64,000 nucleotides of DNA from Butyrivibrio sp. AE3004. Its GTDB lineage: Bacteria; Bacillota; Clostridia; Lachnospirales; Lachnospiraceae. The stretch lies in assembly GCF_000703165.1 (NCBI RefSeq), contig NZ_JNLQ01000002.1, positions 1-64,000 of the forward strand. Reading direction: 5' to 3'. Of this stretch, positions 8,995-24,020 are shown one piece after another. The translations under genes were made by a program, and so were the position numbers. Position 1 is the first letter of the stretch. Each line of letters starts with the position of its first letter. The notes beneath the pieces were generated by a model, which was given only the letters and a program-made list of their open reading frames with translations, did not search any database and had not been told where the DNA came from.

Positions 8995-9981
8995 ATGGCT
9001 AAAAGAGAAAAGATACATTTTGAAACTGTAGATGAGCTTCTTGGGGCTCCAACATTTAAGGACGGTACAGAGGAAATAAAGATAGATAAGATCCATCCGT
9101 TCAAGGATCATCCTTTCAAGGTTATTGATGATGAGAAAATGTCAGAACTGGTTGAAAGCGTTAAGATAAACGGAATTCTTTCCCCTGTACTTGTCAGACC
9201 GGATAACAATGGTGGTTATGAAATGATTTCAGGACACAGAAGAATGCATGCAGCTGTGATAGCTGGGGTAGATACACTCCCGGCAATTGTAAAGGAACTG
9301 TCTGATGATGAAGCTGTAATAGCAATGGTCGATAGTAATGTCCAGCGAGAGGAAATACTTCCAAGTGAAAGGGCTTTTTCCTTAAAGATGAAAATGGATG
9401 TCATGAGAAGACAGGGTGCAAGGACAGATTTGACTTCCGCCACTGAGTGGCGAAAGTTGGATGAAGGTACTTCCGCCACTGAGCGGCGGAAGTTAAATGA
9501 TGAATCCGCAGCTGATGGAACCCGTAAGAAAGAAGCTGCAGCCATTGCAGGTGAAGAATATGGAATGGGTAAAACACAAGTAAAAAAATATATCCGTCTT
9601 ACAGAACTTCTTCCGGAATTATTGGATATGGTCGACGAAAAGAAAATCGCAATTGGTCTTGGGGCAGAGATTTCATATTTTGATAAGGATGTTCAAAGAT
9701 GGGTTTATGAGTATCGTCTCGAAAATGGCTTCTTAAAACAGGAACAGATTGAAGCGCTGAAGAATCATCCCAATCTGGATAATCTCACGCAATATACAGT
9801 CATACAGGTTATGAATGCTGCATTGCCTGAACCTAAGATAAGCGGAAAAGTAGCTATCTCAGAAAAGAAGCTGAATAAATATTTTCCGTCACACATGCCA
9901 GCAAGAGAACGAGAAAGAATAATCCTTGAACTCTTGGCGCAGTGGAAAGAATCACAAAAGGAGGTACAGGATGAAACTTGA
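8995..9981 (+). CDS. parB: ParB/Spo0J partition protein
   Basis: 328 aa. The N-terminal nuclease-like ParB domain has GHRRMHAAVIAGVDTLPAIV and SNVQREEILPSERAFSLKMK; an HTH follows (YGMGKTQVKKYIRLTELLPE), then a C-terminal dimer region. Between the domains, where homologues have a short linker, sits an insertion (about residues 142-180) encoded by two tandem palindromes (9433-9493). Its product should bind parS and work with ParA. The 3' end overlaps the next gene by 11 bases. Confidence 0.9.
   Translation: MAKREKIHFETVDELLGAPTFKDGTEEIKIDKIHPFKDHPFKVIDDEKMSELVESVKINGILSPVLVRPDNNGGYEMISGHRRMHAAVIAGVDTLPAIVKELSDDEAVIAMVDSNVQREEILPSERAFSLKMKMDVMRRQGARTDLTSATEWRKLDEGTSATERRKLNDESAADGTRKKEAAAIAGEEYGMGKTQVKKYIRLTELLPELLDMVDEKKIAIGLGAEISYFDKDVQRWVYEYRLENGFLKQEQIEALKNHPNLDNLTQYTVIQVMNAALPEPKISGKVAISEKKLNKYFPSHMPARERERIILELLAQWKESQKEVQDET
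9433..9493 (+). repeat. Two palindromes inserted in parB
   Basis: ACTTCCGCCACTGAGTGGCG (from 9433) and ACTTCCGCCACTGAGCGGCG (from 9469) start 36 bp apart, each running into a near-complementary arm (GAAAGT, GAAGT). The second is ACTTCCGCC with a perfect GGCGGAAGT partner. They encode SATEWRKL and SATERRKL in frame, so they behave like a palindromic repeat tolerated inside a coding linker. Confidence 0.8.
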
Positions 9982-10378
9982 TTATCATTACGGCAGGCAG
10001 GCCATGCAATATGCCATGGTTGAGATACCACTACTTATGTTTTTGGATGATGCATTTGAGTCCTTATCTATAGAAGCGAAAGTTGTTTATGGAATTTTGC
10101 TTCAGAGAATAAAGATGGCAGTCAGAAATGGGTGGAGAGATGAATTGGGAAGACTCTACGTAATATACCCGTTGGAACAGATGCATAAGGATATAGGGCT
10201 CTCTACAAGAACAATCAGTGCGGCATTAAAACAGTTGGAGGAGATAGGGATCCTTGATATAGAAACAAGAGGACAGGGTATGCCCAATCTGTACTACGTT
10301 AAGAATTTCATCTACAAGGATGAAGATAATGGTTCCAGAGGTGCAAAAATTGCATCTCTGGATAAAGGAAGGGGATAA
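9971..10378 (+). CDS. RepA_N-type replication initiator domain protein
   Basis: 135 aa from ATG 9971, behind AAAGGAGG at a spacing of 7. It has the RepA N-terminal pattern: a fixed-length winged helix with FESLSIEAKVVYGILLQRIK, then LEQMHKDIGLSTRTISAALK and a recognition wing ending YYVKNFIY. Such proteins bind origin iterons. The paralogous domain follows in the next gene, so the element carries two copies in tandem. This one lacks the C-terminal DUF6017 part and may be a regulator or accessory initiator. Confidence 0.7.
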   Translation: MKLDYHYGRQAMQYAMVEIPLLMFLDDAFESLSIEAKVVYGILLQRIKMAVRNGWRDELGRLYVIYPLEQMHKDIGLSTRTISAALKQLEEIGILDIETRGQGMPNLYYVKNFIYKDEDNGSRGAKIASLDKGRG

Positions 10379-10387
10379 AAAGGGGAA

Positions 10388-10888
10388 ATGAAATTTGAGT
10401 ATTTTAACGGAAAAGAGCCTGCTTCAAATTGCTTTATAGTCTTACCGAAAGCACTTCAACATGATCCGGAACTAAAAAAGCTATCTTCAAATGCTAAGGT
10501 TCTATATGGAATTATGCTGGATAGGATGAAATTATCAGCTATAAATAATCAGATCGATAAAGATGGTAAAACCTTCATATATTTCTCTATTGAGAGTATT
10601 CAGGAGGAGCTTAATGTGGGCAGAAATACAGCTTTTAAAGTCTTGGAAGAGCTTGATACGGACAATGGAATCGGGCTTATAGAACGTGTGAAGTGTGGCC
10701 AGGGAAGGCAATCTCGAATTTATGTCATGAGAATAGTTGAGGCAAAATACGATTACTCTGCAGATGAATATGAAAACGAAGATACTGTTCCAGTTCAGAA
10801 GTTTATTAATAGGGGATTCAGAAGAAAAAACGGAAGTTTCAGAATCCCAAAATGTAAACTTCAAGAAGTTTATAAATGGGACTTCTAG
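10388..10888 (+). CDS. repA: Replication initiator, RepA_N part (gene appears frameshifted)
   Basis: 166 aa. The winged-helix initiator pattern is clear: LKKLSSNAKVLYGIMLDRMK, IESIQEELNVGRNTAFKVLE and QSRIYVMRIVEAKYDY. In related proteins a linker with repeated EVxKxN-like words leads to a DUF6017 domain in the same chain. Here the frame moves at an A6 run (10824-10829) into TEVSESQNVNFKKFINGTSR, and again near 11030 into the DUF6017 part at 11017-11448. This frame stops at 10888 instead. Full length would be about 353 aa. Decay, consensus error or real truncation are all possible. Confidence 0.65.
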   Translation: MKFEYFNGKEPASNCFIVLPKALQHDPELKKLSSNAKVLYGIMLDRMKLSAINNQIDKDGKTFIYFSIESIQEELNVGRNTAFKVLEELDTDNGIGLIERVKCGQGRQSRIYVMRIVEAKYDYSADEYENEDTVPVQKFINRGFRRKNGSFRIPKCKLQEVYKWDF

Positions 10889-10980
10889 AAGTTTAAATTC
10901 TAACACTCTAGAAGTTTATAATCGGGACCCTAATAAGAATATTATTAATAAAAATAAAATTAATAATAATAATCTTATCC
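10865..10980 (+). repeat. Candidate origin: 23-bp iterons plus AT-rich tract
   Basis: GAAGTTTA starts at 10865, 10888 and 10911, exactly 23 bp apart, with related copies at 10798 and 10833. A 50-base run of nearly pure A/T (about 10929-10980) follows. Iterons next to an unwinding tract inside or beside a rep gene is the classic plasmid origin layout. The repeats also encode the repeated EVY.x.D words of the Rep linker. Confidence 0.55.
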
Positions 10981-11016
10981 ATATCTATCCAAGTAATACT
11001 AAGGCTTCGACGATTG

Positions 11017-11448
11017 ATGGGGATGGGATGTGACTCTGATGAAACAGCTACAAGATTGTATGTCAGGGAAGACATAGGGACTGATTCTATCTGCAGTGCA
11101 TATCCGCATTGGGAAAGCAAAGTACGTGGACTTGAGGATCTGATTGTTGATGTGCTTACTTCAAGACGCAGCACAATCACAATCGCTGGAGAAGAAAGAG
11201 AGCTGAATGTAGTTAAAGGTCGCTTTATGAAGCTTAACAGATTCCAGCTTGAAACAGTGATAGAGAACTGGTCTAAGCTCAAAAAGACACCAAATAATTC
11301 TAGGGCATACCTTCTTGCAATGCTGTTTAATGTGTCCGGGACAGCAGATATGCAGTTTGAGGCTGAATGCAATGAGGGTGCACAGAGTAATTATCAAAAG
11401 GTGGCTGACAATAACAATGCGGATTATGAAGATTTTATGGAGGGGTAA
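11017..11448 (+). CDS. DUF6017 domain, separated C-terminal part of the replication initiator
   Basis: 143 aa. The sequence VREDIGTDSI, VRGLEDLIVDVLTSRRSTIT, GRFMKLNRFQLETVIENW and SRAYLLAMLFN matches the DUF6017 tail of RepA_N initiators. No ribosome site precedes the ATG at 11017 or the TTG at 11014, and the preceding frame runs into it with KASTIDGDGM. This supports a frameshifted tail rather than an independent gene. It ends two bases before the next gene. Confidence 0.6.
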   Translation: MGMGCDSDETATRLYVREDIGTDSICSAYPHWESKVRGLEDLIVDVLTSRRSTITIAGEERELNVVKGRFMKLNRFQLETVIENWSKLKKTPNNSRAYLLAMLFNVSGTADMQFEAECNEGAQSNYQKVADNNNADYEDFMEG

Positions 11449-11450
11449 AA

Positions 11451-11744
11451 ATGTTTGTTTTAAAGCTTTTACTGAAAATCATATTGTTACCGGTATTCTT
11501 GATGGTATGCTTCATCAGGACATGGGTGGAACTGCTTTCAAGGATCGGCTGCGTTATCCTGGGGCTATTTTACCTTGCGATGCTTGTAATAATCATCATG
11601 TATGTCAGCAAGCAGATGTGGGGGGCAGTAGCCATTTCTGTTGGTATGTCATTCGGAGCATTCCTCATAACTTTTGCTGCTGTTGCAGTTGGAATGGCGC
11701 TTGAAGGAATTGGCGATAAAATCAGCGAAATACTGGCATCATAA
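11451..11744 (+). CDS. Small integral membrane protein
   Basis: 97 aa with AGGGG seven bases before the ATG. It holds two to three hydrophobic segments (about 5-20, 30-52 and 58-82) and a short amphipathic tail. Proteins like this follow rep genes in Tn1549-like elements and may belong to the transfer region, but no function is known. It is the last gene before the tRNA, so the rep operon ends here. Confidence 0.7.
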   Translation: MFVLKLLLKIILLPVFLMVCFIRTWVELLSRIGCVILGLFYLAMLVIIIMYVSKQMWGAVAISVGMSFGAFLITFAAVAVGMALEGIGDKISEILAS

Positions 11745-11806: not shown

Positions 11807-11882
11807 GGGGCATTAGCGCAGTTGGGAGCGCATCACACTGGCAGTGTGAGGGTCACGGGAGCAAGTCCCACTTTGCGCGCCA
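11807..11882 (+). tRNA. tRNA-Ala(GGC), 5' part intact, 3' end replaced
   Basis: Acceptor strand GGGGCAT (11807-11813), D-arm GCGC...GCGC, and anticodon arm TCACA CTGGCAG TGTGA with anticodon GGC are perfect. From 11860 the T-loop reads AGCAAGT instead of TTCAAGT; the T-stem loses two pairs, and the 3' acceptor strand TTTGCGC cannot pair with GGGGCAT. The missing 3' part (TTCAAGTCCCGTATGCTCCA) lies at 21228-21247 and pairs correctly. The gene is therefore split and the left copy should not fold into a working tRNA. Confidence 0.85.
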
Positions 11883-11910
11883 CTCCGGAGATTCATTGTA
11901 TGAAGAAATA

Positions 11911-12748
11911 TCATAATCTCTTGAACCAGTTTATGTAATTCTTATACTCTGACTTCAGACAAATACAGTAGAAGTCCATCTGTGCATCTTTATCAGAAAA
12001 TGGAACAGAAAATCTGTTGTGACGCATTCCAAGAACGCGATTGGTTAGGTCAGTCGAGAAGGCAGGAAGGACGAAGTCTCTGCGACTTCCATAAGGATTC
12101 TGTTCCCGATTGAAGAAGAAACTTCGACTTTGGCATATGTTTTCGGACGATGGCATCCCATACTCCGACTTCAGATACCATGAGAAAACTTTCACCATCC
12201 ATTTGCTTGAACGTGATGGAGCTTTCATATGCAAGTTTATGCTCCGGTATTAGTGATGCACAAAGGTGTTCTGAGCCGCAGTGCTGGGAATGATAAAGCT
12301 CACCTTCAAGCTGATGGTTGAGTATTATCATCTGATATGTTTTGTTATTAATCCCTGTAATAAGGGTTTCTTCATCTGTCATCTCTGTTGATAATGCCAT
12401 ATTAGAAAATGTCGTTGATAGTCTTGGCATCAGCTCAAGAAGCGGACCAGGTGCACAGGATCCTACAGTTATGGTCTTGCTTCTTCTGTCAGAAAGACGT
12501 ACCTGTTCTTCCATGGCCTCATGCATGTGAAGAATATCTTCTGCATATTCTGCAGCTACCTTACCTGTATCATTAAGATACAGTCTTTTTTTCTCCCTCT
12601 CAAAAAGCTTTACTCCAAACTCGTCCTCGAGCTTGCTCATGGATCTGGTAAGTGTAGGCTGCGTAAGATGAAGTGCTTCTGCTGCTTCGGATAATGTTCT
12701 GTGATTCTTAAAAGCTACAAGATGCTCCAAAAGATATGTCTCGATCAT
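11911..12748 (-). pseudogene. LysR-family regulator with one frameshift
   Basis: The N-terminus (from 12748) is a standard LysR HTH: FKNHRTLSEAAEALHLTQPT and LTRSMSKLEDEFGVKLFERE. The effector domain follows, but the frame stops at 12050. The last part continues in another frame to 11911 (EQNPYGSRRDFVLPAFSTDL, NRVLGMRHNRFSVPFSDKDA), and removing one base near 12110 restores about 279 aa. It is divergent from the flavin/redox genes, which LysR proteins of this layout usually activate. The tail carries part of the inducer pocket, so the truncated form would be impaired. Confidence 0.75.
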
Positions 12749-12766
12749 GATATACTCCCAATGATT

Positions 12767-12792
12767 AATATACGCAACAAGTATATTATAAT
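12767..12792. promoter_or_regulatory. LysR-type operator and promoter
   Basis: AATATAC (12767-12773) and GTATATT (12781-12787) form a perfect inverted repeat around GCAACAA, the T-N11-A type box. TATAAT at 12787-12792 overlaps the right arm and would read toward the flavodoxin gene. Placed in the divergent lysR/flavodoxin gap. Confidence 0.55.
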
Positions 12793-12881
12793 ACGAAAGT
12801 TCAATTTTACACAGCTGAATATACGGGGTATCATCAAAACATAGAACATAAACATCGCATATAAAACAGGAGGCGGTTTAA

Positions 12882-13354
12882 ATGAAGACACTTGTAGCGT
12901 ATTTCTCATGGAGCGGAAATACAGAGAAGATTGCCAAACGGATTGTGGCGAAGACCGGAGCCGATATGTTCAGGATCGAGCGAAAGGTACCCTACAGTGA
13001 AGATTACAACACCTGTGCATATAGAGAGGCAAAGGAAGAGATAGAAAAGAAGATAAGACCGGAGATAAAGACACCTCTTCCGGATGTGGAAAAATACGAC
13101 AGCTTGATTCTGGCATTTCCTATCTGGTGGTACACATCACCGCTTCCTGTATGGAGATTTTTGGAATCCTATCCGGACTGGAAAGGAAAAAGATTTATCT
13201 TTTTGCGAACTCTTATACAGATGATCATAACTACATGACCACATCACTTAAGGATGCAAAAGCGTCAGCAAGAAATGCGGATGTTGTTGCAGGACTATTT
13301 AACAAGGAAATAGAAGGGCTGGATGAATGGCTCAAACAGAATAATTTCAGATAA
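12882..13354 (+). pseudogene. Flavodoxin with a homopolymer frameshift
   Basis: AGGAGG precedes the ATG. The N-terminus MKTLVAYFSWSGNTEKIAKR carries the FMN phosphate loop (SWSGNT); IWWYTSPLPVWRFLESYPDW follows. The frame then leaves at the A5 run 13187-13191. One more A would restore IYLFANSYTDDHNY and continue to DEWLKQNNFR at 13354, about 157 aa. It would carry electrons for the reductases behind it. A single A-run change means decay, phase variation or a consensus error. Confidence 0.75.
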
Positions 13355-13371
13355 GAAGGAGGATTTCTATT

Positions 13372-14229
13372 ATGGAGTACATTACACTTAACACAGGAGC
13401 AAAGATGCCACTTGAGGGATTCGGAGTATTTCAGATTCCGGACTTAAAAGAATGCGAAGAGGTAGTTTATAACGCTATCAAGACTGGATACCGTCTTATC
13501 GATACTGCAGCCGCGTATGCAAATGAAGAAGCTGTTGGAAAAGCAGTTGCCCGTGCTATTTCTGATGGTCTGACCACAAGGGAAGAGCTTTTCATAACCA
13601 CCAAAGTGTGGGTAAACGACATGAAGAGTGAGGAAGCTGCTTATGAAGCTGTAAAGACATCGCTTGGCAAGATGGAACTCGATTATGCAGACCTCATTCT
13701 CCTTCATCAGCCAATGGGTGATTACTTCGCAGCTTACCGCGGGATCACAAAGGCATACAAGGAAGGTCTGGCAAAGGCTATAGGTGTAGCAAATTTCTAT
13801 CCTGCTATTCTTACAAACCTCTGCGAGACAGTAGAAGTAATTCCGGCTGTAAATCAGGTAGAGCTTCATCCCTTCTTTGCACAGGAAGCAGCAATTGAGA
13901 ATATGAAGGCTTATGGCGTTGTTCCTCAGGCCTGGGGACCTCTTGCAGAAGGAAAACATGGGATTTTCACAGATCCTGTTCTTACAGAGATTGGAAAGAA
14001 GTATGATAAGAGTGCAGCTCAGGTTGCTTTGAAGTGGAATGCCCAGCGAGGTGTTTCCATCATCCCCAAGTCAGTGCATGTGGAGAGAATGGAACAGAAC
14101 ATCGATATCTGGGATTTTGAACTCACTGATGAAGAGATGGCTAAGGTGGCTGCAAAGGATCTGGGACACAGCGAGATCGTAAACCATGATAGTCCTGAGT
14201 TTGTGAAGTTCGTACTGAATCTGCATTGA
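13372..14229 (+). CDS. Aldo/keto reductase
   Basis: 285 aa, full length for the family, behind AAGGAGG. The catalytic tetrad is complete: Asp44 and Tyr49 (DTAAAYANE), Lys78 (TTKVW) and His112 (LLHQP). The NADPH-binding end reads SIIPKSVHVERMEQNIDIWD. It reduces an aldehyde or ketone with NADPH; the substrate cannot be told. It lies 17 bp after the flavodoxin and 19 bp before an FMN reductase, so the three form a redox operon probably controlled by the divergent LysR. Confidence 0.93.
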   Translation: MEYITLNTGAKMPLEGFGVFQIPDLKECEEVVYNAIKTGYRLIDTAAAYANEEAVGKAVARAISDGLTTREELFITTKVWVNDMKSEEAAYEAVKTSLGKMELDYADLILLHQPMGDYFAAYRGITKAYKEGLAKAIGVANFYPAILTNLCETVEVIPAVNQVELHPFFAQEAAIENMKAYGVVPQAWGPLAEGKHGIFTDPVLTEIGKKYDKSAAQVALKWNAQRGVSIIPKSVHVERMEQNIDIWDFELTDEEMAKVAAKDLGHSEIVNHDSPEFVKFVLNLH

Positions 14230-14248
14230 TTGGAGAGGGAGGTTTTTT

Positions 14249-14866
14249 ATGAAGGTACTTATCATTAACGGAAGCCCCAGAGTGGGCGGAAACACAAGTA
14301 TTGCTCTTGATGAAATGGTAAAGGTGTTTGAATCAGAAGGCATAGAGACGGAAGTTGTTTTTGTCGGAAACAAGGATATCAGGGGCTGCATTGCATGCCG
14401 CGCATGTGCCGAAAAAGGCAAGTGTGTATTTAATGATGTGGTAAATGAACTTGCTCCGAAATTTGAGGAGGCTGACGGTCTGGTAGTGGCATCACCAGTT
14501 TATTTTGCATCAGCTAATGGTACGCTTATCTCATGTCTTGACAGACTTTTCTTCAGCACTCATTTTGACAAGACAATGAAAGTAGGAGCATCAGTAGCTA
14601 TAGCAAGACGTGGTGGCTGTTCTGCTACATATGATGAACTCAATAAGTATTTCACAATCAGTGGAATGCCTGTTGCATCAAGCCAGTACTGGAACAGTGT
14701 TCATGGCAGAGAAAAGGGAGAGGCGGAGCAGGATCTGGAAGGTCTTCAGACCATGCGAACGCTTGCAAGAAACATGACTTTCCTTATGAAGAGCATCGCT
14801 CTTGGAAAAGAAAAGTATGGACTTCCTGAGAAGGAAGAACATCAGTGGACACATTTCATTAGGTAG
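14249..14866 (+). CDS. NADPH-dependent FMN reductase / iron-sulfur flavoprotein-like
   Basis: 205 aa. The flavodoxin-like fold begins MKVLIINGSPRVGGNTSIAL (phosphate loop GSPR..GNT). The motif CIACRACAEKGKCVFND has the spaced cysteines seen in iron-sulfur flavoproteins of anaerobes, and ASPVYFASANGTLISCLDR follows. It probably passes electrons from NAD(P)H to FMN or a small acceptor. GGGAGG precedes the ATG. Last gene of the LysR-controlled set. Confidence 0.85.
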   Translation: MKVLIINGSPRVGGNTSIALDEMVKVFESEGIETEVVFVGNKDIRGCIACRACAEKGKCVFNDVVNELAPKFEEADGLVVASPVYFASANGTLISCLDRLFFSTHFDKTMKVGASVAIARRGGCSATYDELNKYFTISGMPVASSQYWNSVHGREKGEAEQDLEGLQTMRTLARNMTFLMKSIALGKEKYGLPEKEEHQWTHFIR

Positions 14867-14916
14867 AAAGTTATACTATCGGAATTAAACTGTCTAGTGG
14901 TGGTGAGGGAATGGGA

Positions 14917-14941
14917 GGTTCAAGTTTCCGTATGCGCACCA
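14917..14941 (+). other. tRNA 3'-end-like remnant
   Basis: GGTTCAAGTTTCCGTATGCG then CACCA resembles a T-loop plus acceptor end. It matches the displaced tRNA-Ala end at 21226-21247 in GGTTCAAGT and CCGTATGC. The T-stem does not pair well, so it is not a functional tRNA. It may mark an older attachment site inside the island. Confidence 0.4.
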
Positions 14942-14948
14942 ATTTATC

Positions 14949-15533
14949 TTATGGCAGTTTTTTCAGTGTGTTCTCAAAGACATATACGCAGATATCTGCC
15001 ATATGCTCTTCGCTTTCATGCATCCCGTCCCTGAACCAACTGATAAGTATCTGGAAAAAAGCTGCTTCTGAAGCGAGCCTGATGTACTTTGTCTCGGTAT
15101 CTGTTGCAGGGTAGAGAAGCTCTGAAATGGATCTTCCGGAAAAGAGTTCACGCTGTAATATACCTGCCTGATCAAATAAGGTAATGGTTTCCTTATCCTC
15201 ACGGACAGTTCTAAAAACATCTTCAAACCACCGATGAGGGTTCTCGTGAAACTCTGGTTTTTCGCTGATATCAGCAATCCTTTTTATAAGTTTGTTTCCC
15301 AGTTCATGCAAAATATCTTCTTTGTCTGCATAGTTACGGTAGAATGCCGTTCTTGACACTCCGGCACGACGCACGATCTCGCTGACGGTGATTTTTTCAT
15401 ATGGGTGTTCTCCCATAAGGTGCATCAGCGCAAGCTGAAGACATTCTCTTGTCAGCTGGTTAGATTCTTTATTATTCATCCGCAGAACATCTTTTTTCTG
15501 CATTTCTGTCAAAGGTTCTTTTGTGGTAGTCAT
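14949..15533 (-). CDS. TetR/AcrR-family regulator
   Basis: 194 aa from the ATG at 15533, chosen because GAGG lies ahead of it; a longer frame to 15584 lacks one. The TetR HTH is clear (EKITVSEIVRRAGVSRTAFY then RNYADKEDIL), with a divergent ligand domain behind. It is divergent from the radical SAM gene and shares an intergenic region with repeated GTTACA/TGTAAC words, so it likely represses both. The ligand is unknown. Confidence 0.88.
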   Translation of the reverse strand: MTTTKEPLTEMQKKDVLRMNNKESNQLTRECLQLALMHLMGEHPYEKITVSEIVRRAGVSRTAFYRNYADKEDILHELGNKLIKRIADISEKPEFHENPHRWFEDVFRTVREDKETITLFDQAGILQRELFSGRSISELLYPATDTETKYIRLASEAAFFQILISWFRDGMHESEEHMADICVYVFENTLKKLP

Positions 15534-15549
15534 ATTTCTTTTCCTCGCT

Positions 15550-15672
15550 GTTACAAAATGTACGATTATGTAACATCGCTCCAAATGGTATTGCTACTGT
15601 CATGTCCGAGCTCAGAGCCGTTGTATTCGTCTTTTGGCGGAGTTACACTTGTAACATCAGAATGATTGTAAC
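15550..15672. promoter_or_regulatory. TetR operator cluster GTTACA/TGTAAC
   Basis: GTTACA 15550-15555 with TGTAAC 15569-15574; GTTACACTTGTAAC 15642-15655 (perfect palindrome); TGTAAC 15667-15672. The first pair lies just upstream of tetR, the others just upstream of the radical SAM gene. Confidence 0.55.
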
Positions 15673-15696
15673 ACTACATGGGGAGGCAAAACAAGT

Positions 15697-17184
15697 ATGC
15701 AGGTTATAGAAACTATTTCTCACAAGGCACAGAGACAGGCATTCAGTATTTTGATAGACAGATTTCTTGCAAATCTGGATAAGTCTGAGAACAGAACAGC
15801 AACATACTTAAAGCTCGTGGACCAGGCAGAGAAATTTTGGGGGAAAGATGCCACAAGAAAAGAAAAGCTTGATCAGGTAAGGAATGCTTTTAAGGATCCC
15901 GATAACAGATGGGTCAAGTTTCTGAATAAAGTAGTTGATGAGACAGATCCTCATGTTGCCAAGATGACAATGCTCAACCTTGGTTATGAGGCCTTTTTCA
16001 GAGGCACTAAGATGATAAGGGCTAACAGGGAAAAGTATGGCTGCAATATACCATGGCTTATTCTCTTTGATCCAACAAGTGCCTGCAACATGCACTGTCA
16101 GGGCTGCTGGTCCGGAACCTACGGCCCCAAGCACAATCTTTCTTTTGAAGACATGGATAAGATCGTTACCCAGGGAAAAGAGCTGGGTGTTTACCTTTAC
16201 ATGATGACAGGAGGTGAGCCTCTTGTCAGAAAGAAGGATGTGCTCCGCCTTGCTGAAAAGCACAATGATGTAGAGTTTTCTATTTTTGATAACTCCACTT
16301 TAATCGACGAGGACTTCTGCAAGGAAGTAGTAAGGCTTGGAAACATCACGTTCCAGCTTTCTATCGAAGGTACTCCGGATACTAATGATGCAAGACGTGG
16401 AATTGGTCACTACGATGCTGTTATGAAAGCCATGGACCTGTTTAAGAAATACGGAATTGTATATGGCACTTCCATCTGCTATACAAGGAATAATATCGAT
16501 GCAGTAACTGATCCTAAATTCATCGAGTTCATAGCTGAAAAAAGCGCAAGATTCGGATTCTTCTTCCACTACATGCCGGTTGGTAACAATGCTGTTCCAG
16601 AGCTTATGCCAACAGTAGAGCAGAGAAAAAAGATGGTGGAACAGATCAGGTTCCTTAGAAGTGATAAGTGCGATATCGGATTCTTCCCAATGGATTTCCA
16701 AAATGACGGGGAAGCTGTTGGTGGCTGTATCGCTGGCGGAAGAAACTACTTCCACATCAATTCAAGCGGAGATGCTGAGCCCTGCGTATTTGTCCACTTC
16801 TCCAACACCAATATCCATACTCACTCAATCCTTGAGATGCTAAAGAGCCCTCTTTTCATGGAATATCATAAGGGACAGCCCTTTAATAAGAATCATTTAA
16901 GGCCATGTCCTATGCTTGAAAATCCCGAGCTTCTTAGAGAGATGGTAGCAAGATCCGGAGCCCATGGCACCAATGAAGAATCAGAAGAAAGCGTTGAACA
17001 CCTCTGCGCAAAATGTGATAATTATTCAAAAGAGTGGGGACCTGTAGCTGATGATATCTGGGCTCACCAGAAGCACTACAGAAAATCTTACGAGAACTAT
17101 GCAAAAGAAAATATAGAAAGCGCAGAAAAACTGGAATTTCCTGATGTTAAGGAATCCAAGAAGAAAGAGAACAGAGGCGCATAA
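15697..17184 (+). CDS. Radical SAM protein with SPASM-like C-terminus
   Basis: 495 aa behind GGGGAGG. Cys130, Cys134 and Cys137 (CNMHCQGC) bind the SAM 4Fe-4S cluster, followed by MMTGGEPLVRKKDVLRL (GGEP motif). The C-terminus has further cysteines (GGCIAGGRNYFHINSSGDAE, PCVFVH, and CAKCDNYS), as in SPASM enzymes with extra clusters. An N-terminal helical extension of about 110 residues precedes the barrel. The substrate is unknown; no precursor peptide gene is obvious beside it. A degV gene follows 17 bp later, and TetR likely controls both. Confidence 0.85.
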   Translation: MQVIETISHKAQRQAFSILIDRFLANLDKSENRTATYLKLVDQAEKFWGKDATRKEKLDQVRNAFKDPDNRWVKFLNKVVDETDPHVAKMTMLNLGYEAFFRGTKMIRANREKYGCNIPWLILFDPTSACNMHCQGCWSGTYGPKHNLSFEDMDKIVTQGKELGVYLYMMTGGEPLVRKKDVLRLAEKHNDVEFSIFDNSTLIDEDFCKEVVRLGNITFQLSIEGTPDTNDARRGIGHYDAVMKAMDLFKKYGIVYGTSICYTRNNIDAVTDPKFIEFIAEKSARFGFFFHYMPVGNNAVPELMPTVEQRKKMVEQIRFLRSDKCDIGFFPMDFQNDGEAVGGCIAGGRNYFHINSSGDAEPCVFVHFSNTNIHTHSILEMLKSPLFMEYHKGQPFNKNHLRPCPMLENPELLREMVARSGAHGTNEESEESVEHLCAKCDNYSKEWGPVADDIWAHQKHYRKSYENYAKENIESAEKLEFPDVKESKKKENRGA

Positions 17185-17201
17185 TTGCCTGGGGGAAAAT
17201 A

Positions 17202-18044
17202 ATGATAAAAATTCTGTCAGATAGTACCTGTGATCTGTCACCGGAATTGATTCAAAAATACGACATCGGTATAATCCCGCTATATGTAAGACTCGGGGAT
17301 GTGGAATATCTCGATGGCGTCAATATTTCTCCCGAACAGATCCATAAATGGTCTGATGAACATGGAGAAACGCTCAAGACAGCAGCGGCCAGCATTGAGG
17401 ATATTTCCAAATACCTGGATCCGTCAGAAACAGATGAATACGTTATTTTCACGATATCATCTTCAATGTCGGCAAACTTTAACAATGTCAGACTTGCTGC
17501 AGAAGATCTTGGCATGTCTGACAGAGTTCATGTTATTGATTCTGCAAATCTTTCCACAGGTATCGGACTATTGGTAGTGTATGCTGCAGAGCTGGCAAAA
17601 GAAGGAAAGACAGCAAAAGAAATAGCAAGCGAGATAGAGAAAACCAAAGATAAAGTTCGTGCAAGCTTTGTGATAGATACCCTTGTTTATCTACATAGGG
17701 GCGGTCGCTGTTCTGGCCTTGCTGCCTTCTTTGGAACAGCGTTGAAGATCCATCCGCGTATCGCTGTATCTGACGGGGCCATGCATCCGGAAAAGAAATA
17801 TCGCGGATCAAGCAGACGCTATGTACTTGATTATGTCAGGGACATGGAAGCTGACCTGAAAAATGCCAGACCGGAGCGCGTATTTATAACCCATTCCGGA
17901 TGCGACAGGAAAGTGGTTGAATCTGTGAGAGAATATCTGGGTAGTCTTGGCGTGTTCAAAGAAATCCTTGAGACCCGCGCAGGAAGTGTTGTTTCGTCGC
18001 ACTGTGGTCCGGGAACACTAGGGGTGCTGTTTATTGCCAAATGA
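17202..18044 (+). CDS. degV: DegV family fatty-acid-binding protein
   Basis: 280 aa, complete. MIKILSDSTCDLSPELIQKY is the standard DegV start; VIDSANLSTGIGLLV and VIDTLVYLHRGGRCSGLAAF are the binding-site segments, and the C-terminus ends HCGPGTLGVLFIAK. DegV/FakB proteins bind a fatty acid for FakA kinase. The neighbouring radical SAM enzyme and TetR suggest lipid-related control, but that is inference. GGGGG lies ahead of the ATG. Confidence 0.93.
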   Translation: MIKILSDSTCDLSPELIQKYDIGIIPLYVRLGDVEYLDGVNISPEQIHKWSDEHGETLKTAAASIEDISKYLDPSETDEYVIFTISSSMSANFNNVRLAAEDLGMSDRVHVIDSANLSTGIGLLVVYAAELAKEGKTAKEIASEIEKTKDKVRASFVIDTLVYLHRGGRCSGLAAFFGTALKIHPRIAVSDGAMHPEKKYRGSSRRYVLDYVRDMEADLKNARPERVFITHSGCDRKVVESVREYLGSLGVFKEILETRAGSVVSSHCGPGTLGVLFIAK

Positions 18045-18243
18045 TAAGAAAGATATTTCGCTTATTAAATGGTTCAGTGGTGCTACGGGAATTCAGGGAG
18101 AAGGCAGCAAGATATGGGACTTCAAGCTTTATGGAGATATAATTAGGAATCCTAATGAGACTGACCCCAACAGCGAAAATGCGTATGTAGAACTGGTATA
18201 TTCTGACAGATTCCAGCCTATTCAATTTGTTGAAAAGGAATGA
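18034..18243 (+). CDS. Small hypothetical protein or gene remnant
   Basis: 69 codons starting at a TTG inside the end of degV (KKDISLIKWFSGATGIQGEG to FQPIQFVEKE). Codon use looks coding, but there is no ribosome site. The frame opens inside degV, so it may be the tail of a gene lost by insertion or deletion. I do not recognise it. Confidence 0.3.
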   Translation: MPNDKKDISLIKWFSGATGIQGEGSKIWDFKLYGDIIRNPNETDPNSENAYVELVYSDRFQPIQFVEKE

Positions 18244-18343
18244 GGTTATGGTATCAAGAATTGAAACTACATGTGAAAGAAATATAAAATTGTTGCCTAC
18301 TATATTGATATTTGCCACCCCACATGTTATATTTTAATTGCCA

Positions 18344-18580
18344 GATGAGCGTGCTCATCTTTATGGAGATAAGGAGCTTCTCCCACTGGTTCTGACAGTG
18401 TAAAAACTCGAACTCCGAGATGGCTTAATGTAGCGCGTGTCGTTATCAGGAGACCATCAAAACCTTTTACGGATAGGTTAATCCGTGCCGCGAGGCAAGA
18501 TGGCGGGCATCTATAAAATCAGAAAACTAGAGCAAAACCAAGTCCGATTGGATTTACCAACCGGGCTTTTTGCTTTGATT
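18344..18580 (+). ncRNA. Hairpin-rich structured RNA with its own terminator
   Basis: Seven perfect short hairpins in a row: GATGAG/CTCATC (18344-18359), GGAGA/TCTCC (18365-18383), CACTG/CAGTG (18384-18400), CTCG/CGAG (18407-18419), CGGAT/ATCCG (18470-18485), TGCC-GCGA-GGCA with a GNRA loop (18486-18497) and GATG/CATC (18499-18511). A terminator follows: AGCAAA with AAGTCCG pairs to CGGGCTT and TTTGCT (18531-18574). There is no open frame. I cannot assign an Rfam family. It lies 12 bp before the PBECR4 gene. Confidence 0.6.
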
Positions 18581-18591
18581 TGGGGTAAATA

Positions 18592-19299
18592 ATGGCAAGA
18601 AAAAGGATTACGACAACCTCTTGGAATTATAACAGCATAAAAATCAAGTCGGATGAAGAAATAAAAGAACTGCTTTGTAAATCTGCTAACGCGTACTCTC
18701 TGATCTGTGATAAAGAGGTAATGTTCATTTATAGGAAAAACTCTGACGATGCAGAGTATAAGTATTACATTGCAAATTGCAAGAAGGAGAATTTTATCCA
18801 TCTGGTCGGATGTAGGGTAAATAACTACGTTAGCGCTGAGGCTTTTTATGAGGAATGTCTTAATCATATGGAAAAGCCTATAGAAAAAGAGCACATCACA
18901 TATAAAGAGAGTAAGAAGACTACATCAGCCAAACTGGAAGTCTTTCCCTCCATGTTCGACTATAAGGGCGTTAAGGCATACAGGATGGGTGTGCATAATA
19001 AGATAACCATTAAGAATACTTTTGAAATGGCAATGGGAAACAACAAGGGAGTCCTTGGCTTTGACAAGAGGAAAGAAGGCATGATTCCTGTTCCTGTTAC
19101 TATGCTAAATGGCATAATAGGTGATTATGCAACAGATTACTTCAATGTTATTGCGGTGCTGGTAAAGGATAGCTCTGAAAAGAGATTCAGGCAAGTAGTG
19201 GGATGTGTGACAAAAGGTATTGCGGTCTCAGATCTTCCACCAGCAATTAGAGATAAGATAGACTTTTCCGATGAGGAGAGGATTACAAAGCCAGTTTAA
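18592..19299 (+). CDS. PBECR4-domain-like protein
   Basis: 235 aa. The segment ANAYSLICDKEVMFIYRK, then KKENFIHLVGCRV, SAEAFYEECLNH and AKLEVFPSM follows the pattern I know for PBECR4 (phage-Barnase-EndoU-ColicinE5/D-RelE-like nuclease family 4) in Firmicutes mobile DNA. The N-terminus is basic. The C-terminus (VLGFDKRKEGMIPVPVTMLN) is typical too. It could be an RNase-like toxin or a phage-interaction protein. It directly follows a structured RNA with a terminator, so an RNA-protein pair is possible but unproven. Confidence 0.6.
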   Translation: MARKRITTTSWNYNSIKIKSDEEIKELLCKSANAYSLICDKEVMFIYRKNSDDAEYKYYIANCKKENFIHLVGCRVNNYVSAEAFYEECLNHMEKPIEKEHITYKESKKTTSAKLEVFPSMFDYKGVKAYRMGVHNKITIKNTFEMAMGNNKGVLGFDKRKEGMIPVPVTMLNGIIGDYATDYFNVIAVLVKDSSEKRFRQVVGCVTKGIAVSDLPPAIRDKIDFSDEERITKPV

Positions 19300-19363
19300 C
19301 TGCGAGATTAGAATATATAGTTTATGGATTATGATGCCGAAATATACAGTAGATAAAGGACTT

Positions 19364-19408
19364 CCGGATATCAATGGATTGAAACATCCATGGTATCCGG
19401 ATTTTTTA
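19364..19408 (+). terminator. Intrinsic terminator
   Basis: CCGGATA with inner ATGGAT pairs with ATCCAT and TATCCGG, followed by six T's. It closes the PBECR4 gene ahead of the recombinase. Confidence 0.85.
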
Positions 19409-19527
19409 TCTATGTGACCAATAGAGATTTGTGTGAGCAGTTTTATATGGATTGTGACGCATGAATTATTATCTTTGGTATAATGGCATAAATGAATTCC
19501 GTATGAAGCTGCGGAAAGGAGATTTAT

Positions 19528-21189
19528 ATGTATCAGCAGCTTCATGACAACAGAATAACAGCATTATATTGCAGACTCAGTCGAGATGATGGCTTTTATG
19601 AGGACAGCTGTAGCATAGTGTCACAGAAATCATTGCTTGAAAAATATGCCGGGGATCAGGGATTTGGCAATTGCCAGTTCTTTGTTGATGATGGATATAC
19701 CGGAACAAATTATGACAGGCCTGACTTTCAGAGGCTTATACGCCTGGTGGAAAGTGGAGATGTAGGGATCATCATTGTAAAAGATCTTTCAAGACTCGGA
19801 AGGGAGTATCTTCAGACAGGTTATTATACTGAGGTGGCTTTTCCATCACATGATGTCCGCTTTATTGCAATCAATGATGGTATTGACTCTGCGAATGGAG
19901 AAAATGAATTTGCGCCGTTCAAGAATATCATAAATGAGTGGTATGCAAGGGATATCAGCAGAAAGATAAAGACCATCAGAAGGATTAGCGCTGAACACGG
20001 AGAGTACGTGAATGGACGCCCGCCTTATGGGTATATAAAAGATCCTGAACAGCATAATCATCTTATGCCAGATCCGAACAATGCTCCTGTGGTAAAACGC
20101 ATCTTTGATATGTGTGTCAGCGGCAAGGGGTGTACGGAAATAGCTAGGACTCTGAAAACGGAAGAAATTCCACGTCCGAGTTCTTATCATCTTGATAAGG
20201 ATGGCATAAACAAGTCGGATCCGGATGATGAGGAACGTTTTGAGTGGTGCCAGAGGTCTGTACGCGATATCCTGATGAACCCCGTGTACATAGGGCACCT
20301 GTTCTCGTTAAGGGAAACCAAGAGGTCTTTTAAGGATAAGCGTCCGGTAAAAATCCCGGAAGAACAGTGGGTAAAATGCTATAACAACCATGAAGCAATC
20401 GTCACAGAGGAAGTATTTCGCATCGCCCAGAGCAGGGTGGCCGTTAGAAAGCCAAGGAATCCTGCATCATCAAGGAATATTTACAGGGGACTAATTTTCT
20501 GTGCAGATTGCGGTAGTAGGATGCATTTTATCATCAGAAGACCACCTCATAAGGGAATCGGGTATTATGTATGCGGCTTTGCCAAAAGAAAAGGCGTGGG
20601 TTGTGGCTGTTCCCAGCACTACATTACGATTGAGCAGATTGAAGAATTGCTGTTAAAAGATATTAACAGAATACTTACCTGGATTACCGAAGACAAGGAT
20701 GGTTTTGAAAAGTATGTAGAGAGCCTGTCTGCAGCGGAGAAAGAAAAGACCAGAAATGACAGCAGAGCTGAGCTTGATGAAGCAATCAAGAGGATTTATG
20801 AACTGAATATCATCATCAAAAGGCTCTATGAAGACCGGGCACTGGGAGTAATCTCTACAGATCGTTACAAAATCCTTGTTTCAGATTATGAGGCTGAGAG
20901 CACTGCTCTTGACGAAAAAGTAAGAAATCTCAAGGAAAACATCGTTAAAAACAGCAGCAAGAGAAAGGATACAGAGAGCTTCATCAACCTGATCAGCTCC
21001 TGTGGAGAGATTACAGAAATGGATGCAGATATCGCTCACAATCTGATAGATAAGATCCTTGTGCATGAAAAAGAGTCTGAAGGTAATCGGGTGATAATGA
21101 GGGTTGAAGTGCATTATAGGTTTATCGGATGCATCGATAAAGCACTTATGATACCCAAGACCAAAGGTCGCATAAAACGTGCGGTTTAA
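19528..21189 (+). CDS. Large serine recombinase
   Basis: 553 aa behind AAAGGAG. The N-terminal resolvase domain has nucleophile Ser18 (YCRLSRDD) and the DLSRLGREYLQTG active-site helix. The recombinase domain (GRPPYGYIKDPEQ to VYIGHLFSL), a zinc ribbon (FCADCGSRMHF..CGFAKRKGVGCGC), a coiled coil (about 400-490) and a DUF4368-like tail follow, as in TnpX/TndX transposases. All key residues are present. The gene ends 36 bp from the right junction of the island and is the obvious enzyme for its insertion into tRNA-Ala. Confidence 0.93.
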   Translation: MYQQLHDNRITALYCRLSRDDGFYEDSCSIVSQKSLLEKYAGDQGFGNCQFFVDDGYTGTNYDRPDFQRLIRLVESGDVGIIIVKDLSRLGREYLQTGYYTEVAFPSHDVRFIAINDGIDSANGENEFAPFKNIINEWYARDISRKIKTIRRISAEHGEYVNGRPPYGYIKDPEQHNHLMPDPNNAPVVKRIFDMCVSGKGCTEIARTLKTEEIPRPSSYHLDKDGINKSDPDDEERFEWCQRSVRDILMNPVYIGHLFSLRETKRSFKDKRPVKIPEEQWVKCYNNHEAIVTEEVFRIAQSRVAVRKPRNPASSRNIYRGLIFCADCGSRMHFIIRRPPHKGIGYYVCGFAKRKGVGCGCSQHYITIEQIEELLLKDINRILTWITEDKDGFEKYVESLSAAEKEKTRNDSRAELDEAIKRIYELNIIIKRLYEDRALGVISTDRYKILVSDYEAESTALDEKVRNLKENIVKNSSKRKDTESFINLISSCGEITEMDADIAHNLIDKILVHEKESEGNRVIMRVEVHYRFIGCIDKALMIPKTKGRIKRAV

Positions 21190-21224
21190 GTAAAAAAGAA
21201 AATGGTGCGCAACAGGAAACTTGA

Positions 21225-21247
21225 GGGTTCAAGTCCCGTATGCTCCA
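21225..21247 (+). tRNA. Displaced 3' end of tRNA-Ala(GGC)
   Basis: TTCAAGTCCCGTATGCTCCA (21228-21247) is the T-loop, 3' T-stem and acceptor strand of the tRNA whose 5' part is at 11807-11859. ATGCTCC pairs with GGGGCAT, and CCCGT with ACGGG. The first GGG (21225-21227) is shared core. CCA is not encoded here. Confidence 0.8.
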
Positions 21248-21443: not shown

Positions 21444-21669
21444 AGATTCTTCCTCCCGTAAAGAACATTAAAGATTTATAAAAAATACAACATCTAGTGT
21501 TCTTTTATGAGAGTATACACCATATATATTAAAACTTTATAAAATAAGAGGGAAATATTTATAAGAAAAAATAAATAACAAACGCTATATGTTGTATGTG
21601 AAATAGATCCAATATACAATATAAGGTAGAAACAGCCAATCAAAGTGTTCATATTCATAGGAGGCAGTG

Positions 21670-21891
21670 ATGATAACTGAGTTCCCAAGAAGGATAACTA
21701 TTGACGGATTTGTTTATGAGAAGCAGAGCGCACATGATGAGGCGATGTATTATGATTCCAAGGATAACCCTTCGGAGATTACAAGTCACTCAATCAGCCT
21801 GTATCCAAATGGGGAACTGACCTATTTCTGGCAGGGGATAGAGCAGAAATGGAATAAACATTTTGAAGTTGTGAAAGAATTGGCTAACTGA
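21670..21891 (+). CDS. Small hypothetical protein
   Basis: 73 aa from ATG 21670, behind AGGAGG. It is acidic and soluble: ITIDGFVYEKQSAHDEAMYY, then a beta-rich SHSISLYPNGELTYFWQGI. No family recognised. The region upstream (21444-21666) is very AT-rich without a clear gene. A strong hairpin follows, so it is a single-gene unit. Confidence 0.6.
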   Translation: MITEFPRRITIDGFVYEKQSAHDEAMYYDSKDNPSEITSHSISLYPNGELTYFWQGIEQKWNKHFEVVKELAN

Positions 21892-21915
21892 CATCAAGTA
21901 ATAAGTTAATAATAA

Positions 21916-21969
21916 ACACAAAGCGGACTCTGGAATCAATGATTAGTTGGTTTCAGAGTCCGTTTGTGT
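21916..21969 (+). terminator. Terminator-like hairpin
   Basis: ACACAAA with GGACTCTG pairs with CAGAGTCC and TTTGTGT around a 20-base loop. No T-run follows, but placement right behind the gene fits a terminator. Confidence 0.55.
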
Positions 21970-22076
21970 AATGAAAATTTGCGATTAATAGTGTCAACTT
22001 CAGTGTATAGCATGTAGAAACGTTTGTGAAGCAGGGGGATAGCAAACAGAGTCATTATAATTTGTGTAGCCTTTTC

Positions 22077-22427
22077 TTATAATTTTTTGTATTCTTCTTT
22101 TATTTCCTCATGATTCATTTTTGTGAGTTTATCAATCTTAAGTTGTAGAATGGCTGATGCTTGTTTCTGAGTGATATTCAGGGCACTAATGAGGGTTTTC
22201 TTTGCATCTCTTGTGGTTTTCGAGGTTTTAATAATTCGGACAACCGTGTCTATGTTATCTAGTGCTATTAAATAAGCTTCCAGTGTTTGTAATCTGCTTT
22301 TTTTTCGTTTTATTCCCTGTTCAAGCTGAATGGCAGCGTATTCTTCGGTTGTGTAATATATTGGTTGTCCTAAATTATAATCGAAAACATATACATAACC
22401 TTCTTTTTCATAGGGATCCTCGATCAT
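22077..22427 (-). CDS. Stand-alone GyrA/ParC-like fragment protein
   Basis: 116 aa with a good AGGAGG before the ATG at 22427, so it is probably translated. Residues 46-116 (LQTLEAYLIALDNIDTVVRI then ASAILQLKIDKLTKMNHEEI) match the GyrA/ParC tower and coiled-coil segment that holds the C-gate. The first 45 residues are unlike GyrA, and the active-site Tyr region and beta-propeller are absent. It is therefore not a gyrase. It may act on gyrase as a decoy, or belong to a mobile-element system. It is divergent from the WYL regulator. Confidence 0.65.
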   Translation of the reverse strand: MIEDPYEKEGYVYVFDYNLGQPIYYTTEEYAAIQLEQGIKRKKSRLQTLEAYLIALDNIDTVVRIIKTSKTTRDAKKTLISALNITQKQASAILQLKIDKLTKMNHEEIKEEYKKL

Positions 22428-22480
22428 AGAAGCCTCCTAAATATTTTTCATTTTTTATACAAATATTCTTACAAAATAAA

Positions 22481-22504
22481 TGTACAAAAAAATGTACATA
22501 TAAT
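22481..22504 (+). promoter_or_regulatory. Promoter with doubled TGTACA site for the WYL gene
   Basis: TGTACA at 22481-22486 and 22493-22498, each a palindrome, 12 bp apart, immediately followed by TATAAT (22499-22504). A regulator bound there would block the -10 region. The site lies between the divergent GyrA-like and WYL genes. Confidence 0.45.
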
Positions 22505-22568
22505 GTGATAAATTATAATCAGTAGATTCCTAAAATAGCAGTTGAAATTGGTATGAGGAGCAATTTAT

Positions 22569-23555
22569 ATGTATGCGACTGGAAATAAAAAAATGCTAAA
22601 TATGCTTATTCTTGAGGTTTTACGAAAATATTCTGATGAAGAACATGCACTTTCGCAGCAGGAAATTATAAAACTTTTGGATAAGAACTATGGAATGGAG
22701 TGTGACAGACGTTCGGTAAAAAATAACATTATATCTCTTAAAGAAATGGGATATGACATTTCTATGGATAAAGGATATCGGTTGCTCGAGAGAGAATTTG
22801 ACGAGTCGGAGCTACGTATCCTGATAGACAGTGTGCTTTTTTCAAAGTCAATATCTACTAAGCAAGCAAGGGGACTAATAGACAAAATCAGGAGTCTTGC
22901 AAGTAATTATTTTAATGCTAAGGTATCTCACGTGAGTAATCTTCCGGAGCTGAACAGGACTATAAACAAACAGGCAATGTACGCACTTGATGCTATAAAT
23001 GATGCTATTTCTGAAAAACGGAAGATTGAATTTGTATATAACGAGGTTGGTATAGATTTCAAATTACATCCAAAACGAGAGGAATTGTATAAGGTAAATC
23101 CATATCAGATAGTAGCTAATAATGGCAGATTCTACCTTATTGCTAACTATGATAAGTATGATAATGTTGCTCATTTTAGAATAGATAAGATGACAGAGGT
23201 TAGGATTCTTGATGAAAAAATTAAACCCATGAGTCAAGTGCCAGAACTGGAAAATGGATTAAATCTTCCCAAGCACATGGCTGAGCATTTATACATGTTT
23301 AGTGGAGAAAGCGTTTCCGCTGAAATAAAAACCACATCTGATATGATGTCGGAACTAGTGGATTGGTTCGGAACAGATTTTAGTATTGTGAGTAGAACGG
23401 AAGAATCAATGCTTATTAGGGTTAGATGTAATACGTCGGCGTTACGGTTTTGGGCTCTTCAATATGGACCTTATGTAGAAGTGATCAGGCCTGAATCACT
23501 TAGAAAGCAGCTGCAGAAAGATACGGAAACAATGTATGCCAAGTATCATAATTGA
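22569..23555 (+). CDS. WYL-domain transcriptional regulator
   Basis: 328 aa. An N-terminal winged HTH (LSQQEIIKLLDKNYGMECDR, RSVKNNIISLKEMGYDI) leads to a WYL domain: KIEFVYNEVG, VNPYQIVANNGRFYLIANYD, HFRIDKMTEV. A C-terminal WCX extension follows. WYL proteins sense nucleic-acid ligands and often control phage-defence operons. GAGGAG precedes the ATG. A YbjN-like gene follows 9 bp later, and a nuclease/NTPase pair lies just downstream. Confidence 0.9.
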   Translation: MYATGNKKMLNMLILEVLRKYSDEEHALSQQEIIKLLDKNYGMECDRRSVKNNIISLKEMGYDISMDKGYRLLEREFDESELRILIDSVLFSKSISTKQARGLIDKIRSLASNYFNAKVSHVSNLPELNRTINKQAMYALDAINDAISEKRKIEFVYNEVGIDFKLHPKREELYKVNPYQIVANNGRFYLIANYDKYDNVAHFRIDKMTEVRILDEKIKPMSQVPELENGLNLPKHMAEHLYMFSGESVSAEIKTTSDMMSELVDWFGTDFSIVSRTEESMLIRVRCNTSALRFWALQYGPYVEVIRPESLRKQLQKDTETMYAKYHN

Positions 23556-23564
23556 GGTAGACTT

Positions 23565-24005: not shown

Positions 24006-24020
24006 GAAAAACAATAATAT

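Follow-up and report, generated by a model that had tools for sequence, protein, structure and literature searches.

A large serine recombinase island disrupts a tRNA-Ala(GGC) gene within its T-arm on a predicted integrative and conjugative element of Butyrivibrio

We analysed the first 64,000 nucleotides of contig NZ_JNLQ01000002.1 (C2) of Butyrivibrio sp. AE3004, called the window below, in which a tRNA-Ala(GGC) gene is split in its T-arm by a 9,368-bp island that encodes a large serine recombinase (LSR). The interrupted gene rides on a predicted integrative and conjugative element (ICE) of ~81 kb, ~4.5 kb from the left end of the ICE. Very probably, a TnpX-type LSR inserted its element in the T-arm of this ICE-borne gene. 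Because the tRNA gene belongs to the ICE, the island represents an element inside an element, and the tRNA that was lost is an accessory one. The features at the two ends of the island are the following:

11807..11859, plus strand: 5' part of tRNA-Ala(GGC), the B half of attL; its terminal GGG contains the GG core, and it shows 98-100% identity to intact genes of the genus
11860..11882, plus strand: left island arm P' (AGCAAGTCCCACTTTGCGCGCCA); the same or a similar arm stands at left ends in genomes G432, G412, G409, G447 and G413
19528..21189, plus strand: LSR of 553 aa (Pfam Resolvase, Recombinase, zinc-ribbon and DUF4368)
21202..21227, plus strand: right island arm P1 (ATGGTGCGCAACAGGAAACTTGAGGG), which recurs in genomes of the genus
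21228..21247, plus strand: 3' part of tRNA-Ala(GGC), TTCAAGTCCCGTATGCTCCA, the B' half of attR

The original prediction, made from the letters of the window, had the 5' part end at CACGGG (11859) and the 3' part resume at 21228. Both coordinates proved exact: the joined halves, with 100-bp flanks, were called by ARAGORN as a canonical tRNA-Ala(GGC) with every stem paired, and no tRNA was called by ARAGORN for either half with its actual neighbouring sequence, nor anywhere in the 64-kb window. The junctions read CACGGG/AGCAAGTCCCACTTTGCGCGCCA (attL) and ATGGTGCGCAACAGGAAACTTGAGGG/TTCAAGTCCCGTATGCTCCA (attR). The sequence common to both island ends is GGG alone and therefore not the usual tRNA 3'-end direct repeat found at islands that rebuild their target. 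The gene is broken, as had been claimed, because P' offers no substitute for the T-loop and acceptor strand that were lost. The recombinase is indeed adjacent to the break, its gene ending 12 bp before P1. The break of the T-arm by an LSR-encoding island is thus confirmed.

We searched 79 genomes of the genus for the uninterrupted gene. Two of them (G459 and G461) carry ICEs with an intact tRNA-Ala(GGC) at the same place (loci L298 and L299), and this is the empty site that the prediction had proposed to look for in relatives. The gene order is shared with the window: ParA, ParB, replication-like open reading frames (ORFs), the 144-aa and 97-aa ORFs, the tRNA, the 74-aa ORF, VirD4 (82%) and VirB4 (88-89%). 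The T-stem of the tRNA in these two loci differs from that of the window by paired changes. In seven further intact copies of the genus (L289, L290, L292, L293, L295-L297), a sequence 98-100% identical to the 53-nt 5' part is contiguous with an identical 20-nt 3' part, so that the two halves belonged together, as the prediction required. Because of these seven copies and the whole gene at the same place in two ICEs, the match of the halves is not a chance resemblance.

The nearest solved relative of the LSR is TnpX, the recombinase of transposon Tn4451; the match (2mhc_A, E 1.7e-38) covers the catalytic domain only. Its Resolvase, Recombinase and zinc ribbon domains all exceed the Pfam cut-offs and make up the domain set of a large serine recombinase. 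With 84.6 of 900 bits against CcrB and 70.7 of 700 bits against CcrA, it stays far below the cut-offs of the CcrAB/SCC family. When P1 and P' are joined, as they would be in a circle, they form an imperfect palindrome around the GG core with an inverted match of 16/25, a value reached by 22 of 200,000 random arm pairs drawn from the island (random mean 6.3). A dyad of this kind together with a short shared core (GG within the shared GGG) is the attP pattern of large serine recombinases. The P1 arm was found at four places in four of the 79 genomes, and its reversed-pattern control gave none. Furthermore, among the 109 LSR relatives (107 of these loci extend at least 60 bases downstream of the gene), 12 have a GGTGCGCAA-type motif no more than 200 bp downstream of their LSR gene; all 12 are 44-49% identical, which ties the arm type to the recombinase clade.

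From these arms we propose that the LSR would recombine a circular attP (P1, core GG, P') with an attB formed by the tRNA gene around ..TCAC-G-GG-TTCAAGTCCC. The products would be an attL consisting of the tRNA 5' part and P', and an attR consisting of P1 and the tRNA 3' part. The tRNA would stay broken while the island is integrated, and excision would restore it.

The T-arm of this gene was broken repeatedly in the genus. A copy of tRNA-Ala(GGC) was recognisable in 20 of the 79 genomes (searched with the 5' part at E 1e-5; more diverged copies would escape), at 25 places, 18 of them intact according to ARAGORN and seven broken. In six of the seven broken copies the break lies at most 2 nt from CACGGG, and in the seventh (L302) it lies in the anticodon arm. 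An LSR-type left arm is present at three of the six T-arm breaks, i.e. in the window, in G413 and in G432. The whole arrangement (tRNA 5' part, P', 9,787 bp, P1, tRNA 3' part) is repeated in G432 with different cargo, an independent use of the site; there the acceptor strand of the 5' part is decayed, and the cargo includes a response regulator, a glycoside hydrolase 3, an epimerase and a short-chain dehydrogenase. In G413 the tRNA 5' part is followed by a P'-like arm, and no tRNA 3' part was found within 15.4 kb. Other elements also seem to have left their mark here: at L292:3177-3295, L293 and L291 (reverse strand, 1-160) there are additional tRNA 3' ends ~40 bp downstream of an intact tRNA-Ala(GGC) and, in G469, a short T-loop insertion around GGCACAAAGTGCC.

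One kind of arms bounds four elements, each ending in P1 with P' at its opposite end: 9,368 bp in the window, 9,787 bp in G432, 3,242 bp in G412 and 1,740 bp in G447, with inverted arm matches of 15-16/25. The element of the window alone has an LSR; tblastn found none in the regions of G432, G412, G447, G413 and G409, and a 21% relative in the region of G207. The att-bounded elements without an LSR are thus those of G432, G412 and G447, of which only the one in G432 sits in a tRNA 5' part. The elements of G412 and G447 have as left neighbour a second type of right arm, P2, of 36-45 bp, and their right neighbour resembles the start or the whole of the tRNA 3' part. The 1,740-bp element of G447 contains a single ATPase gene; directly beyond its right end there is a tyrosine integrase gene (L331:2931-4118). 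Distant LSRs (33-38%) are encoded elsewhere in the genomes of G432, G447 and G207, and none was found elsewhere in those of G412 and G409 at E 1e-80. The occurrence of these arms at three elements without an LSR suggests that an LSR can mobilise LSR-less modules in trans.

The 9.4-kb island itself is probably not one simple element, because two further att-like junctions (j1 and j2) lie inside it and divide it into three stretches of ~3.1 kb. The original prediction held in part: an LSR-encoding island does sit in the T-arm with its empty site in relatives. Corrections to it concern the host context, which is an ICE, and the island, in which more than a single simple element is probably involved. 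The interior of the island comprises:

12050..12748, minus strand: LysR-type regulator, module 1 (Pfam PF00126/PF03466), 232 aa versus 279 aa in G412
12882..13354, plus strand: flavodoxin gene, module 1, frame broken in this assembly (Pfam PF12682 on 12882-13235)
13372..14229, plus strand: aldo/keto reductase, module 1 (Pfam PF00248)
14249..14866, plus strand: NADPH-dependent FMN reductase, module 1 (Pfam PF03358)
14897..14941, plus strand: att-like junction j1, right arm GTGGTGGTGAGGGAATGGGAGG abutting left arm TTCAAGTTTCCGTATGCGCACCA
14949..18044, mixed strands: module 2 (Pfam assignments), with the next three genes
14949..15584, minus strand: TetR regulator
15697..17184, plus strand: radical SAM/SPASM protein
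17202..18044, plus strand: DegV protein
18063..18098, plus strand: att-like junction j2, P2-type right arm TATTAAATGGTTCAGTGGTGCTACGGGAATTCAGGG, followed by no clear left arm
18592..19299, plus strand: PBECR4 protein, module 3, a predicted barnase/EndoU/colicin-like nuclease (Pfam PF18813, 65 bits versus a cut-off of 27)

P2-type arms are found at 14897-14918 in j1, where a left arm ending GCGCACCA follows directly, and at 18063-18098 in j2. P2 occurs at six places in six of the 79 genomes with different neighbours, and the reversed-pattern control gave none; in G432 and G207 it is directly followed by a half that resembles the tRNA 3' part. Module 1 recurs in G412 (97.3%) and, up to near the contig end, in G409 (95.4%), in both cases behind a P2/P' junction. 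The island thus resembles three modules of ~3.1 kb in tandem, which would have been added one after another (accretion) at the tRNA site. We infer that elements were stacked at one attachment site and that deletions followed, one of which is suggested by the G412 sequence. A coding origin of P2 was considered and rejected, as the frame in question is interrupted by a stop codon in G432; a 69-aa ORF across j2 had no Pfam match.

Taken further, this might amount to a serine-integrase counterpart of gene-cassette capture, in which small modules (1.7-10 kb, some of them lacking a recombinase and containing one to four genes) have arm pairs of a single kind. An LSR would mobilise them in trans and line them up in head-to-tail order in the T-arm of the accessory, ICE-borne tRNA-Ala(GGC); the tRNA gene of the ICE would thus be a landing pad, and excision could restore it. 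We put this forward tentatively and consider it rather unlikely.

Several observations weigh against insertion by this LSR or against the modules. The attB side has no dyad (6/25). The P' pattern, found at six places in five of the 79 genomes versus two in its reversed control, is weak when taken alone, and two of the six matches (G405 and G421) lie away from junctions. The two loci with the empty site are 97.5% identical across 14.5 kb and therefore represent one lineage, not two. The closest LSR relatives reach 38% in the genus and 49% in wider genome contigs, and no close relative with the same target was found. In 10 of 14 LSR relatives inspected (8 of the 12 motif-bearing ones plus L078 and L079), a coding frame with NTP-IIK-PFWQM or similar continues past the junction, and the target therefore differs within the LSR clade; no identity was found for this protein, and Pfam gave no match for a related ORF of 342 aa in G207. 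None of the 109 relatives was recognised in a tRNA gene: a T-loop regular expression gave unconfirmed matches in 12 of the 109 loci, 11 of them on the opposite strand, and ARAGORN on 40 of the 109 found tRNAs in two (L078 and L084), both whole. Neither a circle junction nor a product of excision was observed; the redundant end of the contig has the same integrated left junction. With regard to the modules, no dyad above background is present at j1 (7/25), at j2 (4-7/25) or at the P2/P' junctions of G412, G409 and G447 (4-9/22). This would be expected if P2 derives from another element or target and not from this attP, and it makes the module reading weaker than that of attL and attR. No left arm is recognisable at j2, and module 2 (14949-18046) is 97.3% identical to a stretch of G420 that has no att arms beside it.

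The missing left arm of j2 and the lack of a dyad at j1 and j2 also favour a single simple LSR island with ordinary cargo, in which j1 and j2 would be chance resemblances, as do the single LSR and the two good outer ends of the 9.4-kb stretch. The left-arm regular expression, built from these junctions, is specific, matching only island junctions in 2.74 Mb of loci and nothing in 5 Mb of random sequence, whereas the right-arm expression is less so (nine matches elsewhere and three in random sequence). Because j2's arm also recurs in the six genomes with an empty control, and module 1 stands behind P2/P' junctions in two other genomes, we regard the simple island as quite possible, yet not as the best account of the interior. 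It is improbable, in our view, that a tyrosine recombinase or illegitimate recombination split the tRNA and that the adjacent LSR gene is a bystander. The T-arm is a usual site of tyrosine integrases, direct repeats of the tRNA 3' part exist at some copies (L292, L293 and a second 3' part in G432), and a tyrosine integrase lies beside the right end in G447. However, the island ends share only GGG and no tRNA 3'-end repeat, its arms form an inverted repeat of which P1 abuts the LSR gene, no tyrosine integrase is present among the nine island proteins scanned, and G432 shows the same break with the same arm type.

Two other explanations concern the junction itself. The P' arm might supply a substitute 3' end, so that a functional tRNA is still made: the Rfam tRNA model scores 30 bits on 11807-11870, exceeding the cut-off by 1 bit, and the arm ends in CCA. 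We consider this very improbable, as ARAGORN calls no tRNA there, the arm, judged by eye, provides no complete T-stem and no acceptor strand that would pair with GGGGCAT, and the 5' part in G432 lacks the acceptor strand, as in a dead gene. An assembly artefact at a contig end would fit the position of the window at the start of C2, a circular contig with redundant ends in which C2:3619385-3630828 equals window 7329-18748 with 0 mismatches and 39 gap openings. The same attL at both contig ends and the same arms in other genomes make an artefact hardly credible, and insertion by the TnpX-type LSR is retained as the best explanation of the break.

With respect to the prediction's question whether the genome has other tRNA-Ala(GGC) copies, none was found with the tRNA-Ala pattern, the joined tRNA or the 5' part, and the 57 listed tRNA-model matches, all checked, include two tRNA-Ala(UGC) genes and no intact GGC gene; that model search scored 150 of 216 candidates, which leaves a small possibility of a further GGC copy, a point against our reading. 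A UGC anticodon can read all GCN codons by established decoding rules. Because of this and of the two remaining tRNA-Ala(UGC) genes, the cost of losing tRNA-Ala(GGC) is probably small, and its recognition in 20 of 79 genomes makes the isoacceptor accessory in the genus. Outside the genus, 27 ParB matches other than the window's own were obtained in 397 genomes, and tRNA-Ala(GGC) is absent from the 20 ICE regions read among them, as far as the contigs reach. In seven of these 20 regions (L241-L247) there is an intact tRNA-Arg(CCT), either an ICE-borne tRNA or an insertion site. Viral contigs contained no attL and two loci with LSR relatives of 37-38% only.

Known systems share single traits with this island. 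Dehalococcoides ssrA islands (DsiB, CcrB-like serine recombinase) occupy the T-loop of the tmRNA gene in tandem, and 15 islands without an integration module were read as possible cis-mobilizable elements that arose by accretion (PMC3146451). They resemble the present case in a serine recombinase proposed to act in the mid T-loop, in tandem islands and in recombinase-less members; they differ in a 20-bp 3'-end repeat and in an essential single-copy target, whereas here GGG only is repeated, and the tRNA is broken and ICE-borne (PMC3146451). Our LSR is also TnpX-like and far below the CcrB cut-off. Integration of serine recombinases in tRNA genes is described as rare, with eight mycobacterial actinomycete ICEs (AICEs; tRNA-Leu) and phage phiRSM1 (tRNA-Ser) as cases (PMC3218068). 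These likewise involve a serine recombinase and a tRNA gene, but phiRSM1 is described as inserted at the 3' end, whereas here the cut lies inside the T-arm, nothing is rebuilt and the element is of a different type (PMC3218068). Streptococcal ICEs contain integrative and mobilizable elements (IMEs) or ICEs with serine integrases inside the ICE genes traG, SNF2 and PPI, with tandem accretion (PMC4701971, PMC7168690). There, too, an LSR element lies inside a host ICE and disrupts one of its genes; the targets are protein genes, unlike the tRNA gene here, and no relaxase was identified in our island (PMC4701971, PMC7168690). SCCmec and the Enterococcus cassette chromosome are likewise LSR-moved, cargo-variable cassettes with dyad symmetry at att, but their target is the 3' end of rlmH (PMC6222049). 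In our case no ccr pair turned up, and element size goes down to 1.7 kb. Island sites in general are treated elsewhere (PMC12424338, PMC12884075).

According to these sources, nesting, targeting of RNA genes and accretion each have a precedent. What sets the present case apart from the published ones is that the target tRNA stays broken, that an ICE is the host, and that the same ends occur on very small elements without a recombinase. A literature search, to which most subscription journals were closed, found no report of an LSR island that breaks a tRNA T-arm without rebuilding it, nor of comparable LSR-less 1.7-kb elements. An LSR island that breaks a tRNA, with its empty site known, bears on the question why it is mostly tyrosine recombinases that use tRNA genes; the target here is dispensable and element-borne. 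In addition, it provides a natural LSR for which both attP and attB can be proposed, and the very small recombinase-less elements with matching ends are candidates for trans-mobilisation.

As regards cargo, the island encodes its own integrase, as an IME would; no relaxase was found by Pfam among the nine island proteins scanned, and no oriT search was made. The nuclease-like PBECR4 protein directly before the recombinase might have an addiction or defence role, and PADLOC gave zero matches for it. The LysR and flavodoxin frames (12050-13354) are shortened or broken and differ in the redundant contig end and in G412, where the flavodoxin has 157 aa in a single frame; for LysR, this may reflect indel errors at the contig end.

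The host element is predicted to be an ICE from its integrase, type IV secretion system (T4SS) ATPases, coupling protein, relaxase and defined ends:

5820..7154, plus strand: ICE tyrosine integrase with a Tn916-type DNA-binding domain (Pfam PF00589/PF02920)
7329..7335, plus strand: ICE att core TCCCGAC, left end, at the 3' terminus of the presumed lysS, a class II (D/K/N) tRNA-synthetase gene
8198..11744, plus strand: ICE genes left of the tRNA, namely a ParA-type ATPase, ParB, two RepA_N proteins, the 144-aa DUF6017 ORF and the 97-aa ORF
21667..48642, plus strand: ICE genes right of the island, including the 74-aa ORF (21667-21891), VirD4 (35046), a VirB4-like ATPase (38636) and a relaxase (47245)

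Pfam matches right of the island are PF02534, PF19044 and PF03432; VirD4 belongs to the CD1115 family (547 bits) and the relaxase is of the MobA/VirD2 type. TCCCGAC is common to both ICE junctions, and the integrase end (window 5820-7335) is repeated with 100% identity at C2:86690-88205. On the chromosome, left of the overlap, a GreA gene is followed by the synthetase gene, in whose last codons the shared sequence starts; we read this gene as a putative lysS. Window 1-7328 is read as the ICE right end placed at the contig start, in a circular form, a tandem or through an assembly effect, and its junction with the left end could signal excision or such an effect. A tRNA match at C2:3623861, considered as a second gene or an empty site, was rejected, as it is the redundant contig end with the left junction still in it. 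ParB had no match in plasmids at 60% identity or above.

A further cluster of six tRNA genes (Phe, Met, Tyr, Thr, Val, Asp) occurs both at C2:3230200-3231000 and on the 347-kb contig C3 (C3:192400-193200). The ICE cargo in window 52651-60383 gave matches to the PADLOC candidate defence system PDC-M33A/B/C and, in the same scan, to a Vsr-type endonuclease, a type II restriction enzyme and a cytosine methyltransferase.

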